This document shows positions 4,781-58,161 of a stretch of DNA of 64,000 nt, in pieces; positions within the stretch are counted from its first letter, which is position 1, and each line of letters opens with the position of its first letter. The notes beneath the pieces were generated by a model, which was given only the letters and a program-made list of their open reading frames with translations, made no database searches and had not been told where the DNA came from. Where the stretch lies: assembly GCF_900105025.1 (NCBI RefSeq), contig NZ_LT629759.1:1364001-1428000 (forward strand). The letters are read 5' to 3'. The translations under genes were made by a program, and so were the position numbers. Source of the stretch: Parafannyhessea umbonata (GTDB lineage: Bacteria; Actinomycetota; Coriobacteriia; Coriobacteriales; Atopobiaceae).

Positions 4781-6073
4781 ATGTCACGGGGCGGCACCGG
4801 CAGGCAGAGGCGCGTCTCCCGCACAAAGCTGCAGGAGCGCAGACTCCAGGCAGCGGCGGCGGTTGACGTCGCCCCCCTATACGACGTCGTCGTGGTCGGC
4901 GGCGGGGCATCCGGCCTCGTCGCCGCGATCTGCGCAGGCGAGAAGGGCGCGCACGTCCTGCTCCTGGAGTCCTCTCCCGAGTGCGGACGACCCTTGCTCG
5001 CCACGGGAAACGGGCGATGCAACTTCAGCAACGTGGGGCTTGCGCCGAAGTACTACAACGACCCCGCGTTCGTGCAGGCCGTCTTCGGCGACGACCCGCT
5101 CGCGGACATCCTCTCCTTCTTCCGTCAGTGCAACATGCGCTGGTGCCTGGAGGAGGAGAGGCTCTACCCCCTCTCGCGGCGCGCGACATCTGTAAGGAGC
5201 GTCCTTTTGCGCCGTGCCGGGTCCGCCGGCGTGACCATCGCCTGTGCGAGAAGCGTCATCGGCGCATCTCGTTCGGACGAGGGCTTCACGGTCACGTACC
5301 GTGAGGAGTTCGCTGGCAATATGGAGCGGGCGGTCCAGTCGCATTGCCTCGTCGTGTCGACCGGCGGCACGCAGAGCACGCATGACTTCGACGTGGCAGA
5401 CTCGCTTGGCCTCGAATCGAAGCCCGCACAGCCCATCCTCTGCCCCGTGGGCTGCGAGCCCAACCCAATCCTCGATCTGGACGGCCGCAGGCTGCATGTG
5501 CGCGCGCAACTCACGCACACCGCCTTCCCCGTATGGAGCGAACGCGGCGAGGTCCTCCTCAGGAGCTACGGCCTATCCGGAATCGTCGTGTTCAACATGT
5601 CTCGCCAGGTCAAAACGGGCGACCTTATCGAGCTCGACCTCCTTCCTGACCTCACCAAGAGCGAGCTGCAGCAGATGGTTGACCCGTTCGCTCACGGCTC
5701 GTTCGAGGCCGGTTGTCTCGACGGCGTGCTCGACCCAGACGTCGCCTCGAGACTCGAAGGCCTTGCGCGCAGCCGTTGGACGCTCGAAGACACCGGACGG
5801 GACGAGCCCGCGAGCGACTCGGAAGCGCTCATGGCCCTCGCGAAAAGCTACCCGTTGAGGGCAACGGGCACGACCGGTCACGAGCAGGCCCAAGTGCTGC
5901 GCGGCGGAATCTGCACGAACCAGTTCTCGACCGAAACGCTCGAGTGCACCTCCATACCCGGTCTCTTCGCCACGGGCGAGGCGCTCGACGTCGACGGGGA
6001 ATGTGGCGGGTTCAACCTCTCGTGGGCGTGGAAGAGTGGAATGGTCGCGGGTGCGGCCGCCGCAACCAGATAG
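4781..6073 (+). CDS. HI0933/YhiN-family FAD-dependent oxidoreductase
   Basis: This 430-residue flavoprotein has the dinucleotide-binding motif VVGGGASGLVAA near residue 40, the family signature GNGRCNFSN near residue 83, and a C-terminal FAD contact region GECGGFNLSWAWKSG. This fits the HI0933/YhiN (BaiN-like) family; most members have no assigned substrate, although BaiN from Clostridium scindens has been linked to bile-acid dehydroxylation. The N-terminal 30 residues are basic and probably disordered. It begins 3 bp after mrp and is followed 66 bp later by another FAD enzyme in the same orientation. Cytoplasmic, with no signal peptide. The family call is firm; the substrate is unknown. Confidence 0.9.
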   Translation: MSRGGTGRQRRVSRTKLQERRLQAAAAVDVAPLYDVVVVGGGASGLVAAICAGEKGAHVLLLESSPECGRPLLATGNGRCNFSNVGLAPKYYNDPAFVQAVFGDDPLADILSFFRQCNMRWCLEEERLYPLSRRATSVRSVLLRRAGSAGVTIACARSVIGASRSDEGFTVTYREEFAGNMERAVQSHCLVVSTGGTQSTHDFDVADSLGLESKPAQPILCPVGCEPNPILDLDGRRLHVRAQLTHTAFPVWSERGEVLLRSYGLSGIVVFNMSRQVKTGDLIELDLLPDLTKSELQQMVDPFAHGSFEAGCLDGVLDPDVASRLEGLARSRWTLEDTGRDEPASDSEALMALAKSYPLRATGTTGHEQAQVLRGGICTNQFSTETLECTSIPGLFATGEALDVDGECGGFNLSWAWKSGMVAGAAAATR

Positions 6074-52279: not shown

Positions 52280-52675
52280 ATGGAGAGACGCAACACGCGC
52301 CAGCGCCAGCTGGTGCTCGACGCCGTGCGGGATCTGGACGACCACCCCACCGCCGACGAGGCGTACCTTCGCGTGCGCGAGAAGGACGAGCACGTGAGCC
52401 GCGGCACGGTGTACCGCAACCTCCACGTCCTGGTGGAGTCCGGCGACATCGTCTCTGTGAAGGTTTCCGGCGGCGAGCGCTTCGACCGCAGGAGCGACAA
52501 CCACGCGCACCTGGTGTGCACGGAGTGCGGCAGCGTGAAGGACGTGCCGGCGCCGGACGTGGAGGACGCGCGGCGCGAGATGGAGCGCGCGTGGGGCTAC
52601 GCCGGCGTCCGCACGAGCACGGTGTTTGCGGGCGTCTGCCCCGCGTGCCAGAAAAAGAGCCAGGCGGCGAGGTAG
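52280..52675 (+). CDS. Fur/PerR-family metalloregulator
   Basis: This 131-residue winged-helix regulator of the Fur superfamily has RNTRQRQLVLDAV near the N-terminus, HPTADEAY, the recognition helix SRGTVYRNLHVLV, and two Cys pairs for structural zinc (CTECG and CPAC). The His/Asp pattern (HAHLVCTECG) is compatible with Fur or PerR; short length and CxxC pairs slightly favour PerR-like. It faces the ZIP transporter across the TAATAATAT repeats and is convergent with the feo genes, so it probably senses iron or peroxide. The ATG at 52280 has GGGAGG upstream. Confidence 0.88.
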   Translation: MERRNTRQRQLVLDAVRDLDDHPTADEAYLRVREKDEHVSRGTVYRNLHVLVESGDIVSVKVSGGERFDRRSDNHAHLVCTECGSVKDVPAPDVEDARREMERAWGYAGVRTSTVFAGVCPACQKKSQAAR

Positions 52676-52714
52676 CCACCCGGCTCTGCAAGCACGACCT
52701 CGGTCGCACTATCG

Positions 52715-52807
52715 CTACTTCCCCCTGCACGCGTGCCGCACCTCGACGCAGGATCCGGCCACGGCCGCGGAGAGGAGTACGGCGGCGGCCATCGAACCAA
52801 CATCCAT
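52715..52807 (-). CDS. 30-residue membrane peptide downstream of feoB
   Basis: A short frame encodes 30 residues, starting MDVGSMAAAVLLSAAVAGSC, with one hydrophobic segment followed by CVEVRHACRGK. It has a good ribosome site (AAAGGGG 8 bases before the ATG), lies 116 bp past the feoB stop in the same orientation, and ends with two Cys, as do longer FeoB-associated Cys-rich proteins. It may be a shrunken member of that family. Expression is not proven. Confidence 0.45.
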   Translation of the reverse strand: MDVGSMAAAVLLSAAVAGSCVEVRHACRGK

Positions 52808-52923
52808 GTGATCACCCCTTTCGATGGTGAGAAGAGCCTGCGTCCGTTGCCGGGCGACCCTGCGGTCCCGCCCCGTTGGGGGTCGGGGCGAGACCGCCTG
52901 CGGGCCGCGGGGGTCGAACCCTG

Positions 52924-55584
52924 CTATGCGACCGGCTCCTCCGAGAGGCTCTGGAGGATGTGGCCGTCCTTCTCGTCCCACGTTGGCATGGGACGGAAGA
53001 GTTGGAAGAGGATGGCCGCGAGCAGCGCGAACGCCACGACGGTCCAGAACCCGAAGCTGCCGAAGGCGAAGAGCTCGTACAGCTGGTTGATGAGGAGCCC
53101 CACGACCCAGCCGAAGCCGCACTCGTAGCCGATGGCGAACCAGAACCACTTGGGGTCGTCCATCTGCCTGCGAATGGTGCCCATGGCGGCGAAGCACGGA
53201 GCGCACAGCATGTTGAACGCGACGAACGCGCACATGGCGCCCACGTGGAGCGTGCCGGCAACGGTGAACATGTCGGCAAATCCCTGCCACATGGAGACGG
53301 AGTTCTCCGTGGCGCCGCTGAGGCCGTACAGGACGCCGAACGTGGAGACGAGGTTCTCCTTCGCGATGAGCGCGGAGATCGTGGAGGCCGTCGCCTGCCA
53401 GTTGCCGAAGCCGAGCGGTGCGAAGATGAAGCTCAGGGCGCCGCCGACGCCGGCGAGGATGGAGTAGTCCATGTAGGTGTCAGGCGCTGCGGCCATGCCC
53501 TGCAGGAAGCCGAAGGAGCCGTCGCCGCCCTTCCAGCCAGCGATGCCGAAGTTGGAGAGGAACCAGATGGCGACCGCGGCCGCGAAGATGATGGTGCCGG
53601 CCTTCCTGACGTAGGAGGCGACGCGCTCCCACACGTGCAGCGCCCAGGAGCGGATGCCGGGGAAGTGGTAGTCGGGAAGCTCCATCACGAACGGCATGGG
53701 CTCGCCCTGGAACGGCTTGGTCTTCTTGAGCATGACGGCGGAGACGACGATCGCGACGATGCCGAGGAAGTAGAACATGGGAGCGACCCACCACGCGCCG
53801 TTGTCCGCGCCGATGAGGACGCCCATCACGAGCGAGATGATCGGCAGCTTCGCGGAGCACGGGATCATGGTGGTGAGCATGGCCGTCATGCGGCGGTCGC
53901 GCTCGTTCTCGATCGTCTTGGTGGCAAGCACGCCGGGGACGCCGCAGCCGGAGGAGACGATCATGGGGATGAACGACTTGCCGGAGAGGCCGAAGCGGCG
54001 GAACACGCGGTCCATCACGAAGGCGACGCGGCTCATGTAGCCGCAGTCCTCCAGGAAGCACAGCAGGACGAACAGCACGAAGATCTGCGGGATGAAGCCG
54101 AGCACGGAGCCGACGCCGCCGATGACGCCGTCGACCACGAGCGAGACGACCGCGTCGGACGCGCCGGCGTTCTGCAGCCAGCCGGAGACGGCAGTCGGCA
54201 CGGAGTCCACGAAGCCGTCGTAGTCGTGCGGGTCAGGCTCCTGCGCGTTGACGGCCTTCTTGAAGTCCGCCAGGGTGACGGTCTTGACCACGTCGAGCTT
54301 CTGCCCGGACGAGAGGACCGCGTTGCCCTTGGAGTCGAGCTTCGTCACGACCTCGCCTCCGTCGTGCGTGAGGTTGCCGTCGCCGTCATGCTGCGGCACG
54401 TCACGCGCAACGACGCCTTTCGCCTTCGACTCGAACGCCTTGATGGCTCGCTCGTCCGCGGCGCTCAGGCTGTCCGCGGCCAGGGCCTTGCTCACGGCCG
54501 AGGTGTCCACGCCCTTCTCGCCCGCCGCGGCCAAGAAGCCGTCGATCTTGTCCGCGTAGTGGCCGTCCGCGTAGGCGGCGGTGTCCGCGTCGTACCTCTG
54601 CTGCGAGGCGGAGTTCACGAAGAAGCCGTCCGAGAACAGGTTGTCGTTCACCCAGTCCGTCGCGGGCGTGCCCACCGCCACGAGCGCCACCCAGTACACG
54701 GCGATCATCACTGCCGTGAAGATGGGAAGGCCCAGCACGCGGTTCGTCACGACGCGGTCGATCCTCTGCGAGGTGGTGAGCCTCTTGGGGGCCTTCTTCA
54801 CGCACGCATCCATCACGGTCGCGATCCAGTCGTAGCGCTCGCCCGTGACGATGGACTCGGCATCGTCGTCACGGCTCTTCTCGACCGCGGCGATGACCTC
54901 CTCCGCCTGGTCGAGCTGCTCCCTCGAGAGGCCCAGGGGCTCGATGGCCTCCGCGTCGCGCTCGAACACCTTGATCGCGTACCAGCGGGCGAGCTCCGCG
55001 GGCGCGGCGTCGCCCACGATGGCCTGCACCTTCTGCAGGGCAGACTCAACCTCGGGCGAGAAGCACCTGACGCCCTTGGTCGCAACGCCGCCCCCGGCCG
55101 CGTCAACGGCCTGCCGCATGAGCTTGTCCAGGTTCCTGTTTCGCAGCGCGGATACCTCCACGACGGGCGCGCCGAGCATGGAGGAGAGCTTCTTCGCATC
55201 GATGACGTCGCCGCGCTCCTTAAGCAGGTCGCACATGTTGAGTCCCACGACCACGGGACGCCCGGCCTCCAGCACCTGCGTGGTGAGGTAGAGGTTGCGC
55301 TCGAGGTTCGTGACGTCGATGAGGTCGACCACGGCGTCGGGCCTGTCGTTCACGAGGAAGTCGCGTGACACGACCTCCTCCGGCGAGTACGGGGAGAGCG
55401 AGTAGATGCCCGGCAGGTCCACGAGCTCAACGTCTCGCTCCTTCTTCCACGGGGCCTGCTTCTTCTCGACCGTGACGCCGGGCCAGTTGCCCACGTAGCC
55501 GTTCGACCCCGTAAGCTCGTTGAAGAGCGTCGTCTTGCCGCAGTTGGGGTTACCTGCAAGCGCTATGTACGTCGTGTCTGCCAT
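52924..55584 (-). CDS. feoB: Ferrous iron transporter FeoB with extra loop domain
   Basis: FeoB imports Fe2+ across the inner membrane. The 886-residue protein has a GTPase domain with G1 GNPNCGKTTLFN (11-22), G3 DLPG and G4 NMCD, a GDI-like region, then Gate motifs (SSGCGVPGVLATKTIENERDRR, MIPCSAKLPI). It is about 110 residues longer than E. coli FeoB (773): residues about 306-466, after the first membrane segment, hold a soluble insert with DxD-like acidic loops. Operator A lies 72 bp upstream. The order feoA2, feoA1, feoB, 30-residue ORF runs in one direction. Confidence 0.96.
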   Translation of the reverse strand: MADTTYIALAGNPNCGKTTLFNELTGSNGYVGNWPGVTVEKKQAPWKKERDVELVDLPGIYSLSPYSPEEVVSRDFLVNDRPDAVVDLIDVTNLERNLYLTTQVLEAGRPVVVGLNMCDLLKERGDVIDAKKLSSMLGAPVVEVSALRNRNLDKLMRQAVDAAGGGVATKGVRCFSPEVESALQKVQAIVGDAAPAELARWYAIKVFERDAEAIEPLGLSREQLDQAEEVIAAVEKSRDDDAESIVTGERYDWIATVMDACVKKAPKRLTTSQRIDRVVTNRVLGLPIFTAVMIAVYWVALVAVGTPATDWVNDNLFSDGFFVNSASQQRYDADTAAYADGHYADKIDGFLAAAGEKGVDTSAVSKALAADSLSAADERAIKAFESKAKGVVARDVPQHDGDGNLTHDGGEVVTKLDSKGNAVLSSGQKLDVVKTVTLADFKKAVNAQEPDPHDYDGFVDSVPTAVSGWLQNAGASDAVVSLVVDGVIGGVGSVLGFIPQIFVLFVLLCFLEDCGYMSRVAFVMDRVFRRFGLSGKSFIPMIVSSGCGVPGVLATKTIENERDRRMTAMLTTMIPCSAKLPIISLVMGVLIGADNGAWWVAPMFYFLGIVAIVVSAVMLKKTKPFQGEPMPFVMELPDYHFPGIRSWALHVWERVASYVRKAGTIIFAAAVAIWFLSNFGIAGWKGGDGSFGFLQGMAAAPDTYMDYSILAGVGGALSFIFAPLGFGNWQATASTISALIAKENLVSTFGVLYGLSGATENSVSMWQGFADMFTVAGTLHVGAMCAFVAFNMLCAPCFAAMGTIRRQMDDPKWFWFAIGYECGFGWVVGLLINQLYELFAFGSFGFWTVVAFALLAAILFQLFRPMPTWDEKDGHILQSLSEEPVA

Positions 55585-55655
55585 GTGCCTTCCCTGCCGT
55601 CGTTCGCGCGGATGCGTCGTGGTTCCCTCTGCGGCCCCGCCGCCCCGTCGCTATT

Positions 55656-55673
55656 GTTAGCCGTACTTAACTT
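55656..55673 (-). promoter_or_regulatory. Putative iron-regulon operator, feoB
   Basis: GTTAGCCGTACTTAACTT lies 72 bp upstream of feoB and just after the feoA1 stop and a T-rich tract on the minus strand. It shares both half-sites with the elements at 30028 and 56356. Confidence 0.55.
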
Positions 55674-55696
55674 CGTGCTGAAAAAAAGAGGCGCCG

Positions 55697-55933
55697 CTAC
55701 GCCCGGACGATGTCCGTGACCTCGATGCACTGCGCCTCGTCCTTGCGAAGCGTCAGCTCGTACCCGCGGACCGTGACCTCGATGGGATCTCCCAGCGGAG
55801 CCACCTTGTGCACCAGAACCTGGGTCTTCTTCGTCACGCCCATGTCCATGATGCGGCGCTTGACCGCGCCCGTGCCGGTGAGCCTCTCGACGGTGCACGT
55901 CTGCCCCACCTTCACGTCCCTCAGCGTTGTCAT
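55697..55933 (-). CDS. feoA: FeoA-domain protein
   Basis: FeoA is a small SH3-like partner of FeoB. The 78-residue product has the core VGQTCTVERLTGTGAVKRRIMDMG and VRGYELTLRKDEA, typical of FeoA. The ATG at 55933 has GGAGG 8 bases upstream; an in-frame ATG at 55948 is less likely. It lies 112 bp upstream of feoB. Confidence 0.92.
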   Translation of the reverse strand: MTTLRDVKVGQTCTVERLTGTGAVKRRIMDMGVTKKTQVLVHKVAPLGDPIEVTVRGYELTLRKDEAQCIEVTDIVRA

Positions 55934-56045
55934 GTGTTTGCCCTCCATATCGTTTCCAAAGTGACGCCGCAAGCCACGGCGCCTTCGGCTTGTACACGTG
56001 TCGTCCGGCGCGTCACCCCTGGCAGGCCGCCCTCGTCGACCTTCT

Positions 56046-56333
56046 TCAGCAGGTCACGACCCTCATCGCCATGTCGCGGTTCAGGGCGAGCGTCGCGCCC
56101 TTGACGCTCGCGACCACGTCGCCGTTAACGCGCGAGACCACCTTCACCTTGGCCCCCTGCACAAATCCCATCTCGGCCATGCGCTGTCGCAGGTCCTGCG
56201 GGCCGCGCACGCGCGCGACCGTCACCGTCTGCCCCTCGCTCGCCATCGCAAGCGGCAGCTGGAAACCAGACCTTAGCCCCGACGCGGCAACACGGCCACC
56301 GCCGGCGTGCTGATACCCCATGACGCCTTCCAT
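56046..56333 (-). CDS. Second FeoA-domain protein
   Basis: This 95-residue product has a Gly/Ala-rich leader and then the FeoA core GQTVTVARVRGPQDLRQRMAEMGFVQGAKVKVV and KGATLALNRDMAMRV, similar to but diverged from the neighbouring FeoA. Two FeoA genes ahead of one feoB occur in other Gram-positive bacteria. The start is uncertain: ATG at 56333 (GGGAGA upstream), 56321 or 56246. Operator D lies 23 bp upstream of the first. Confidence 0.87.
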   Translation of the reverse strand: MEGVMGYQHAGGGRVAASGLRSGFQLPLAMASEGQTVTVARVRGPQDLRQRMAEMGFVQGAKVKVVSRVNGDVVASVKGATLALNRDMAMRVVTC

Positions 56334-56355
56334 CGCTCTCCCATGCAGTCAAATT

Positions 56356-56414
56356 GTTAACCATATCAAACTCACAGTGTGCACAATAGTACACTTTGGT
56401 TAACTTTGTAAACC
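56356..56414 (-). promoter_or_regulatory. Tandem putative iron-regulon operators ahead of the feo genes
   Basis: GTTAACCATATCAAACTC (56356-56373) matches the shared element. A second near-palindrome, GGTTAAC-TTT-GTAAACC (56398-56414), and an AGTGT/ACACT pair (56376-56395) lie next to it. Together they form a dense operator region 23-80 bp before the first feoA start. Confidence 0.55.
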
Positions 56415-56489
56415 CAATTTGCGAACTTTTCGCTAATTGAATCCGGCGCACGCCCCGCCGCAGGCGTGCACGGCAACACCTAAAGGTTT

Positions 56490-56995
56490 GGTACGCACCC
56501 GCCACGGGCTTACGAAATCCTGTAAACCGATGTCTGGTGTGTACCCGCGGCCAAGATGCGACTGCGCGCACCACCCCAAGGCCGCGCTGGGTCTTGCCAA
56601 GTCGGGCCAGGTGTGTACCAGCGCTTTTGACTGCAGCACACACCATTGCCAACCTTGCAGGCTTCCGCGAACTCGGTGCGGGTGTGTTGCGCCAAAAGAG
56701 GCCCCGTGGCGGAAACCCTCGGGTGCGTACCCGATACATGATTTGAGTACTTATAGCTTGAACACTCTACCTGCAATCATTTCTTATTGAACCAAAAGCG
56801 TATGCAGCACACCCAGGGCATTCTCGCATCACGCGCAACACACCCACGACTTCGTGACGACGGGCCCCTGTCTGCGCAACACACCCAAAGCGATCTTGTA
56901 AGGTCTCGCAAACTCGCCCCAAGTGTGTGCGGCGGCGGGCACGCACCCGGGGCGACGTTACGAAACCGCGCGAACCGGGCTCGGGTGTGTACCCG
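56490..56995. repeat. Field of GGGTGTGTACCC-type repeats
   Basis: About 500 bp between the NuoF-like gene and feoA hold no supported gene but contain at least ten related elements in both orientations: GGTGTGTACCCG (56536), GGTGTGTACCA (56610), GGGTGTGTTGCGC (56680), CGGGTGCGTACCCG (56720), GCGCAACACACCCA (56833 and 56874), CGGGTGTGTACCCG (56982) and weaker ones. Several are preceded by a similar arm (TTACGAAA.CC, CTTGCAGGC, CTTGTAAGG) about 25-30 bp earlier, giving a unit of about 40 bp. The remaining bases of the 757-bp gap (56334-57090) hold the feo operators and a terminator. Confidence 0.6.
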
Positions 56996-57014
56996 CATCC
57001 CGCGTGACCTACGC

Positions 57015-57047
57015 AAAAAGACGGAGGAGAAGGACCGCTCCCTCTCC
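57015..57047 (-). terminator. Terminator after the NuoF-like gene
   Basis: On the minus strand GGAGAGGGA-GCGG-TCCTTCTCC (57026-57047) is followed by TCCGTCTTTTT. It lies 44 bp past the stop of the 57091 gene and fits an intrinsic terminator. Confidence 0.8.
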
Positions 57048-57090
57048 CCCATCTTCAAGCTAGACCGTTGCCATCGCTCAGCCGCGGCGC

Positions 57091-58161
57091 CTACTTCTTC
57101 CTGCGCACGGGAATGGGCCTCGGCGGCGTCTTCGGCTTCTTCGCGCCGGCCTTCACCACGGCGCCCTCGCCGCACGCGTCCAGGCAGCGTCCGCACTGCG
57201 TGCACTTGCGCTGGTCGATCACGTGCACAAAGTTCGCCTTGCCCATGATGGCGCCGTCCTCGCACGCGTCCAGGCAGTCGCCGCAGCCGGTGCAGCGGGA
57301 CACCAGGATATGGAAGGTCTTGTACGCGTCGCACGCGCCGGCCGGACACACCTTGCGCGCGTAGTGGGCAGAGATCTCGTCGCCAAACAGCGCACACGTC
57401 TGGCGCACGGTCTTCGCGAGCACGCGACCCACCTCGCACAGCGACTGCCCCTCCATCATGGGAGCAAGATCCTGCAGAAGCTCCAGGTCGCCGGACTTGC
57501 CGCGCTTGTGGCAGACGTCCTCCAGAATCGTGGCCATCTGGTACGAGCCCTCGTGGCCGAACACACAGTGCCCGCACGTCTCGTGGCGGTACTCGCGGCA
57601 GATCCTCAACAGCTCGTCGGCCATGCAGCAGTCCGCGCCAAACACGCGCACCACGTCGCTGGCGAGAAGAACGTCGCCCTCGCCTGAGGCCGCGACCATG
57701 TCGCCCTGCGGAAATCCCAGGTACACGGCCTTTGCGTCCTCCACGCCGGCCGCCTTGGCCAGTTCCGCCACGCTCACCTGCGCCGGCAGCTCCACCGGCT
57801 CGGTCGCGCCGTTCACGTACACGAGCTTCGGCGCGCCCTCGCCGCGCAGCCACGCCTCGCCGCCCACCAGGGTGTCTGAGGCAGAGCCGGTCACGGCCGA
57901 GGGTATGGGCTTCTCGCCCGCAAACAGGCGGGCGGCGGCGGTGTCGTTGCCGTACACGTAGCCAAACGAAGCGTCGGCGCGTGCGACGGCGACGCCCGCC
58001 GCCTCGAACGCGTCGCAGAGCTCGGGCTCGTCCGCCGGAAGGACCACGCGGGCCCCCTCGGCCGCCGCCTTCCGGACGGCCGCGTCCACGTCGGCCTTGA
58101 GGGCCACGAGCGCCGCGGGCGCCTGCGCGTACGCGGGCATGAAGTTTATAGTCAGTGCCAT
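57091..58161 (-). CDS. NuoF-C-terminal-like Fe-S protein with two ferredoxin modules
   Basis: This 356-residue protein has an N-terminal region without the usual NuoF FMN/NADH fold, an SLBB-like segment (KLVYVNGATEPVELP), a NuoF-type Cys module near residue 195 (ETCGHCVFGHEGS, and TCALFGDE later) and a C-terminal 2[4Fe-4S] ferredoxin (CTGCGDCLDACEDGA, CTQCGRCLDACGEGA). The module has only two of the three clustered Cys of NuoF (CGxCxPC becomes CGHCVFG). The ATG at 58161 begins MALTINFM; the gene starts 11 bp after its upstream partner ends. Electron-transfer role is inferred from domain content; no substrate site is recognisable. Confidence 0.83.
   Translation of the reverse strand: MALTINFMPAYAQAPAALVALKADVDAAVRKAAAEGARVVLPADEPELCDAFEAAGVAVARADASFGYVYGNDTAAARLFAGEKPIPSAVTGSASDTLVGGEAWLRGEGAPKLVYVNGATEPVELPAQVSVAELAKAAGVEDAKAVYLGFPQGDMVAASGEGDVLLASDVVRVFGADCCMADELLRICREYRHETCGHCVFGHEGSYQMATILEDVCHKRGKSGDLELLQDLAPMMEGQSLCEVGRVLAKTVRQTCALFGDEISAHYARKVCPAGACDAYKTFHILVSRCTGCGDCLDACEDGAIMGKANFVHVIDQRKCTQCGRCLDACGEGAVVKAGAKKPKTPPRPIPVRRKK

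Follow-up and report, generated by a model that had tools for sequence, protein, structure and literature searches.

An array of 50-bp dyads with conserved spacing upstream of feoA in Parafannyhessea umbonata and its possible likeness to REP/BIME repeats

REP, BIME and REPIN repeats are found together with RAYT transposases (PMC2817692, PMC3116915, PMC3733652), and RAYT genes lie between two REPs (PMC2817692, PMC3116915). The repeat field described here lies in a 64,000-nucleotide stretch of the genome of Parafannyhessea umbonata (the window). We regard it as a cis-acting, non-autonomous BIME-like array of dyad protein-binding sites, analogous to REP/RAYT systems and bound by a protein family encoded next to suf genes. 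This reading has, in our judgement, as much chance of being right as of being wrong, and binding, movement and the link to the protein are all inferred from sequence. The likeness is that both systems consist of intergenic, modular and lineage-specific dyad repeats, that the candidate protein evolves fast and in one genome (G027) is encoded between two dyads, and that arms and protein both vary by lineage. On the other hand, RAYT genes (Y1_Tnp, PF01797) were present in none of the three genomes of the genus studied here, while 5 of 14 control genomes were positive. The unit is a 50-bp dyad with ACRCACC/GGTGYGT ends, whereas REPs are palindromes of 20-40 bp that carry a GTAG or CGTC tag at one end. 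Arrays of the window's type have a length-rigid superstructure with a core (two six-unit arrays are each 572 bp long), and no profile relation of the suf-linked protein to RAYTs was seen. Because the Y1 transposase is missing from all three genomes and the unit is different, the arrays are not members of the REP/RAYT family.

Three other groups of elements bear comparison. BOX, ERIC, Correia and other MITE-like elements are modular and intergenic and show presence/absence differences. The arrays too are modular, intergenic and present or absent by genome, but no fixed ends or clear target duplication were seen and copies only 55-70% identical are nevertheless equal in length. As to the parent transposase by which MITEs are judged, a dyad-gene-dyad arrangement is found only in G027, where the gene is interrupted and the enzyme class unproven. 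Mu, Tn7 and lambda attP have several phased protein sites in a complex of fixed length. The arrays likewise have several phased sites and a fixed length, although the complex is inferred; they differ in having no transposase or integrase gene inside and in the arrangement of the dyads about a core. Finally, sopC and P1 parS are arrays of bipartite dyads whose specificity classes differ by few bases. Bipartite dyads and specificity classes are shared by the arrays described here, but these are chromosomal, occur in several copies and are present or absent between congeners.

A preliminary description of the window had claimed a real field of imperfect repeats at 56490-56995, and this was confirmed in three ways. 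With up to three mismatches allowed on both strands, ten rows (nine places) matching GGGTGTGTACCC fell inside 56489-56994. Since the 56 matches in the whole window are at chance level (51.8 expected), it is the clustering that constitutes the signal. The repeats were also recovered by a gapless repeat search, and a dyad detector found four units in the field and at most one in 40 dinucleotide shuffles. The three reported copies of a 13-mer, one of them inverted, were likewise found: GCGCAACACACCC occurs at 56680-56692 (minus strand), 56833-56845 and 56874-56886. The bare half-site GGTGYGTNNC was not enriched genome-wide (69 forward and 80 reverse occurrences versus 91 and 92 of a control pattern).

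Other parts of that description did not hold. The unit is not a degenerate sequence of about 40 bp; the aligned copies define a 50-bp dyad, ACRCACC-N6-GANNTTGC-N8-GCRAACTC-N6-GGTGYGT, with ACRCACC and GGTGYGT as outer arms and GANNTTGC and GCRAACTC as inner half-sites. The logo was derived from 35 aligned units of exactly 50 bp, other lengths being excluded, and the resulting weight matrix was trained partly on unit 1, which it scores in Table 1. Nor is the spacing variable: it is quantised, with steps of 73, 72, 241 and 62 bp between the starts of the five units in the window. This fixed geometry had been overlooked and no mechanism proposed. The claim that the field is non-coding was correct, and we rejected a coding reading on the ground that each frame is open in at most 7 of the 14 cores aligned. 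A CRISPR had been excluded too, and this holds on the form of the repeats, without data on cas genes. The units are diverged dyads at set positions and not near-identical direct repeats with unique spacers, and the sequence between them can be aligned from array to array. In the same region of the window (52280-56333) a Fur-family gene adjoins the feoA-feoA-feoB cluster, which contains two FeoA genes.

Table 1. Features of the array in the window (window positions) and location of the suf-linked gene (locus positions)
Feature	Position	Strand	Score or source
Dyad unit 1, 50 bp, arms ACGCACC / GGTGTGT	56493..56542	none	PWM 47.4 bits
Dyad unit 2, degenerate, 51 bp, arms GCGCACC / GGTGTGT	56566..56616	none	not above 25 bits
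Dyad unit 3, 50 bp, left core border	56638..56687	none	49.5 bits
Left inverted-repeat half of core (GGTGTGT-TGCGCC ... GGTGCGT)	56681..56728	+	
Conserved motif of AT-rich centre, consensus about CTACCTGCRATCATGTGNAATYGAACCAA	56767..56795	+	core alignment
Right inverted-repeat half of core (CACACC ... GCGCAACACACC)	56806..56885	-	
Dyad unit 4, right core border, 241 bp after unit 3	56879..56928	none	44.1 bits
Dyad unit 5, 62 bp after unit 4	56941..56990	none	49.0 bits
Neighbouring FeoA-domain gene, then second FeoA + FeoB; array upstream of FeoA-domain gene	56046..56333	-	
Neighbouring gene for NADH_4Fe-4S/Fer4 protein, 3' end toward array	57091..58158	-	
suf-linked gene, G000	L006:6207-7298	-	
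suf-linked gene, G001	L033:6989-8035	-	
suf-linked gene, G002	L120:1203-2234	+	

The quantised spacing is general for arrays of the window's type (type 1). In the genome of the window (G000; 2,353,093 bp, one contig) and in P. umbonata 105184 (G001), 64 units of more than 25 bits in 17 type-1 loci gave 47 spacings: 62 (7), 72 (4), 73 (17), 74 (3), 145 (2), 241 (13) and 243 bp (1). The bit scores are partly circular because the weight matrix was built from 35 of the same units, a problem that does not affect the spacings. Hits that scored only 10-25 bits were left out, namely two in L074, with neighbours at 73 and 290 bp, and individual hits in loci of a second type. The core consists of a long inverted repeat whose AT-rich centre contains a conserved motif. 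Aligned with gaps left free, fourteen cores (13 of 291 bp and one of 293 bp) differed by a single 2-nt indel, although their pairwise identity is only 55-97% (median 66%) and about 929 substitutions were inferred on a FastTree tree. Five comparisons of flanking noncoding sequence gave 29, 141, 56, 32 and 110 substitutions with 1, 4, 2, 2 and 2 internal indel events. These add up to 11 indel events per 368 substitutions, a rate that predicts about 28 indels for the cores. The control is a rough one; the last flank pair is poorly aligned and the second includes a decayed array.

Spacing is conserved while sequence diverges, and the arm sequence varies by species with the geometry kept. It is unusual for noncoding DNA to change in a third of its letters while its length stays almost the same, and the observation is directly testable. 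Retention of length during divergence implies a molecular ruler. Helical phasing can be inferred, as 62, 73 and 241 bp correspond roughly to 6, 7 and 23 turns of the helix. A Fourier analysis of conservation in ten cores did not show a 10.5-bp period among its top peaks (14.2 and 17.0), so that phasing rests on unit spacing alone.

Elsewhere in G000 a second array, missed by the preliminary description, lies upstream of sufC (G000:C1 about 495008-495827) and has two cores in tandem. Two single units are located at C1:542596, upstream of a hypB-hypA pair, and at C1:646983. Eleven type-1 arrays with a core were examined in G001. The unit model returned at least 23 rows in G000 and at least 133 in G001; these counts include both strands of one site and are to be set beside the 64 units mentioned above, and beside the copy-number criterion of more than 100 per genome for REP, BIME and REPIN repeats. 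When 84,980 species genomes were scanned with a degenerate unit pattern, the 12 matching stretches all belonged to P. umbonata 105184, seven of them falling inside loci taken from G001, but the window's own genome may be missing from that collection. The unit pattern did not occur in viral contigs, and one G001 core used as a blastn query (E up to 0.01) matched none of 50,697 phage and 72,556 plasmid records. The multi-genome DNA and model searches scored only part of the first-look candidates of each genome. Other single hits of the unit model, in G014 and, more strongly, in G135 (E 4.0e-6), both lie inside predicted ORFs and were treated as chance despite the E value of the latter; neither has a homologue of the suf-linked protein alongside, which counts against a link between protein and dyads. 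No paper on these repeats was found in the literature searched. A separate dyad, GTAAATCC...GGATTTAC, was noticed by eye near sufC (L006 about 4850-4880, L119 about 1585-1612) and is kept in the congeners; it has the look of a usual promoter or operator region.

At syntenic sites, one congener may have an array that another lacks. Among the genes next to arrays are those which we take to be hisS, malic enzyme, thiolase, acetyltransferase and some suf genes, named by eye (other suf names are from Pfam). The interval at the acetyltransferase locus is 37 bp in G000 and 687 bp in G001, that at hisS 25 and 644 bp, with flanks 92-96% identical. Between genes for an NlpC/P60 protein and an iron-alcohol-dehydrogenase, whose ends were taken from a simple ORF caller, a third congener (G002) has 1002 bp with an array, compared with 215 bp in G000 and 212 bp in G001 without one. 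The preliminary description had named absence from close relatives with conserved flanks as grounds for refutation. This is not the case at the feo site, where G001 has an array at the same place as G000, whereas at the hisS and acetyltransferase sites presence does differ between G000 and G001. The two feo arrays are only 72% identical over 364 bp, yet the flank near them is 97% identical over 298 bp. Within G001 the cores feo1, suf1, gnat1, C1_258 and C25_61 form a recent subfamily of 89-97% identity. Taken together, these figures suggest that arrays spread and replace one another.

Filled and empty sites compared at two loci gave no clear target-site duplication, and the elements showed no fixed end. 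Homology between recent copies stops at varying points, which fits gene conversion as well as transposition. Transposases of the rve type are present in all three genomes, but a link to the arrays has not been established. Three of the 13 rve matches of G000 (C1:537998, 615145 and 642410) lie less than 5 kb from array-related sites, these being the hyp unit, the empty acetyltransferase site and the single unit at 647 kb. In P. umbonata 105184 insertion-sequence-like ORFs, with one rve transposase match, occupy L032:6789-8346 between the feo array and feoA. G002 has two small toxin-antitoxin-like ORFs, recognised by eye, at its hisS locus (L108:2021-2714), in the gap that holds an array in G001.

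Two further arm types were recognised. Type 2 was examined at seven loci of G001 (L067, L068, L069, L071, L077, L078 and L079). Its arms are near GGTACACGT/ACGTGTACC, its inner half-sites are similar to those of type 1, and its spacings are 63 and 72-74 bp. The long step is 375 bp in five of the seven loci and 438 bp (375 + 63) in one, and is lacking in one. A DNA search of 140 genomes of the family found type 2 only in G001, besides three short weak matches in two others. Type 1 had no match in G002, but it would be wrong to read this species as a congener without arrays, since only type 1 is missing. Its suf locus, read directly, contains type 3 with arms ACAGAACC/GGTTCTGT and units at L119:933, 1005, 1319 and 1392 (steps of 72, 314 and 73 bp, where 314 = 241 + 73). 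A second type-3 array has units at L161:2267, 2339 and 2580 (steps of 72 and 241 bp). Similarity searches miss such arrays: G002 gave a score of zero before its suf locus was inspected. Gapless comparison of type-3 with type-1 cores gave mean identities of 39% and 44% in the better orientation and 36% and 35% in the other, against a mean of 26% and a maximum of 35% in a slid control. Both orientations have to be read with the core's own inverted repeat in mind. The motif of the AT-rich centre appears by eye to be retained in part in types 2 and 3.

A possible explanation for these observations is that a dimeric sequence-specific protein would bind each 50-bp dyad, that several dimers would fold the array into one length-rigid nucleoprotein complex, and that this complex would copy or move arrays between intergenic sites. 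Every step is inferred, and there are no data on binding or movement. A fixed-size complex folded by dimers would account for the way length is conserved as well as for the dyads, the switches of arm type and the turnover of arrays. The partner, on weaker inference still, may be the suf-linked protein, acting on the dyads as RAYT transposases act on REP/BIME but being an unrelated enzyme.

It might be thought that the field encodes a structured non-coding RNA made up of consecutive hairpins. The dyads would form hairpins and RNAalifold predicts 55 pairs, 8 of them with one or more two-sided changes, but the covariation term is 0. The proposed stems are paired in 82.9% of cells (83.0% in shuffles), the arm covariation score is 0.105 (0.101 ± 0.008 in shuffles), and Watson-Crick pairing at the variable arm positions 3:48 occurs in 14 of 35 units, fewer than the 18.2 expected. 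Rfam gave no match at gathering score in 55900-57400 (best E 0.058). Because the arms pair without covariation the units look like DNA sites rather than RNA hairpins, and we consider the RNA reading very improbable. An enhancer-like role, in which a regulator on phased dyads controls feo, suf and hyp by looping, is less remote but still unlikely. In its favour, the three sites known to be common to the two closest genomes lie 5' of feoA, sufC and hypB (the hyp site having one unit above 25 bits in each of G000 and G001), and one G001 array is just 3' of an ABC ATPase gene with a CbiM gene some distance on. Against it, other arrays adjoin the four genes identified above on visual inspection (hisS, malic enzyme, thiolase and acetyltransferase), three loci lie between convergent genes (L031; L075, with two units and no core; L068, of type 2), and array sites differ between congeners.

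A role in organising the chromosome, or one like that of partition sites, with a ParB- or nucleoid-type protein bound to the arrays, would account for phased dyads dispersed over several contigs, and specificity classes are reminiscent of plasmid partition sites. This too seems unlikely, though we have no data on ParB, as G000 has only two array loci and two single units against the 11 type-1 core arrays of G001. Alternatively the arrays could be decaying miniature transposable elements without a present partner, their order being a relic of recent amplification. Presence/absence differences, the recent subfamily and single units at the hyp locus speak for such decay. It is hard to reconcile, however, with cores that are 55-70% identical and keep their length, which neutral decay should not allow, and we doubt it.

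The candidate partner required by the BIME-like reading is encoded by a gene that adjoins the suf array in all three species (Table 1). As this is one orthologous locus, the linkage counts once. The protein is 78% identical between G000 and G001 and 52% between G000 and G002, compared with 93% for SufC between G000 and G002; the gene evolves fast. In Pfam it gave only hits below the curated cut-offs, to DUF559 and MTES_1575 restriction endonucleases, so that a PD-(D/E)XK-like nuclease is no more than a possibility. NCBIfam returned one meaningless weak hit and PADLOC none. Fold prediction was uninformative (single sequence, pLDDT 31.6) with no credible solved relative, and no relative of the protein was found in viral contigs or phages.

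In G027, which belongs to another genus of the family, a homologue (37% over 214 aa) is flanked on its two sides by 50-bp dyads, at L197:9816 and 10948. The gene is interrupted by N and a frame change, possibly an assembly gap. The dyads share one register, with differences at 11 of 58 positions. The first matches all 12 inner positions and 7 of 8 arm positions, and in 577,407 bases no control site reaches 11 or more inner and 7 or more arm positions. The second matches 9 of 12 and 6 of 8, a level reached by 17 control sites, and is therefore weak alone; its support comes only from likeness to the first (47/58) and from its symmetry (23/30). Symmetry extends to 22 and 23 of 30 pairs in the two dyads, while 20 shuffles reach at most 21.

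None of 28 other genera for which sequence upstream of sufC was available (1500 bp in 27, 580 bp in one) showed an array there, and the dyad-array detector likewise gave nothing in a scan of 400,000 bases from four other genera. To register an array, the detector must see three good units with arm distances of 43 or 48 bp. When run on 359,431 bases of G002, it caught the suf array and missed the second type-3 array, later found by an arm search. As the detector is known to miss arrays, these absences are weak evidence against the link to the protein.

Should the suf-linked protein prove to be the partner, the repeats would be spread by a system whose enzyme is unrelated to RAYTs and whose natural switches in specificity could be used to study how proteins and DNA co-evolve. 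A bolder reading, which we put forward only as a possibility, is a second, independently evolved REP/RAYT-like system. An Atopobiaceae protein family, possibly of PD-(D/E)XK type, would recognise 50-bp bipartite dyads, its specificity co-evolving with them by lineage, and would build a complex rigid in length, of about 570 bp, by which arrays are copied from one intergenic site to another. There would then be three arm types in one genus and a fourth in another.

Homologues of the suf-linked protein also occur without such dyads nearby, namely a second one in G001 (L196, 27%) and one in Collinsella aerofaciens (26.5%), and this speaks against the link between protein and dyads. A 1,785-bp circular C. 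aerofaciens record (L199, NZ_OY725722.1), in which no dyad was visible to our scan, has a weak homologue as its single annotated gene. A 42-nt inverted repeat of 79% identity, with 165 nt between its arms, is located 3' of the Collinsella homologue at L198:6204-6452.
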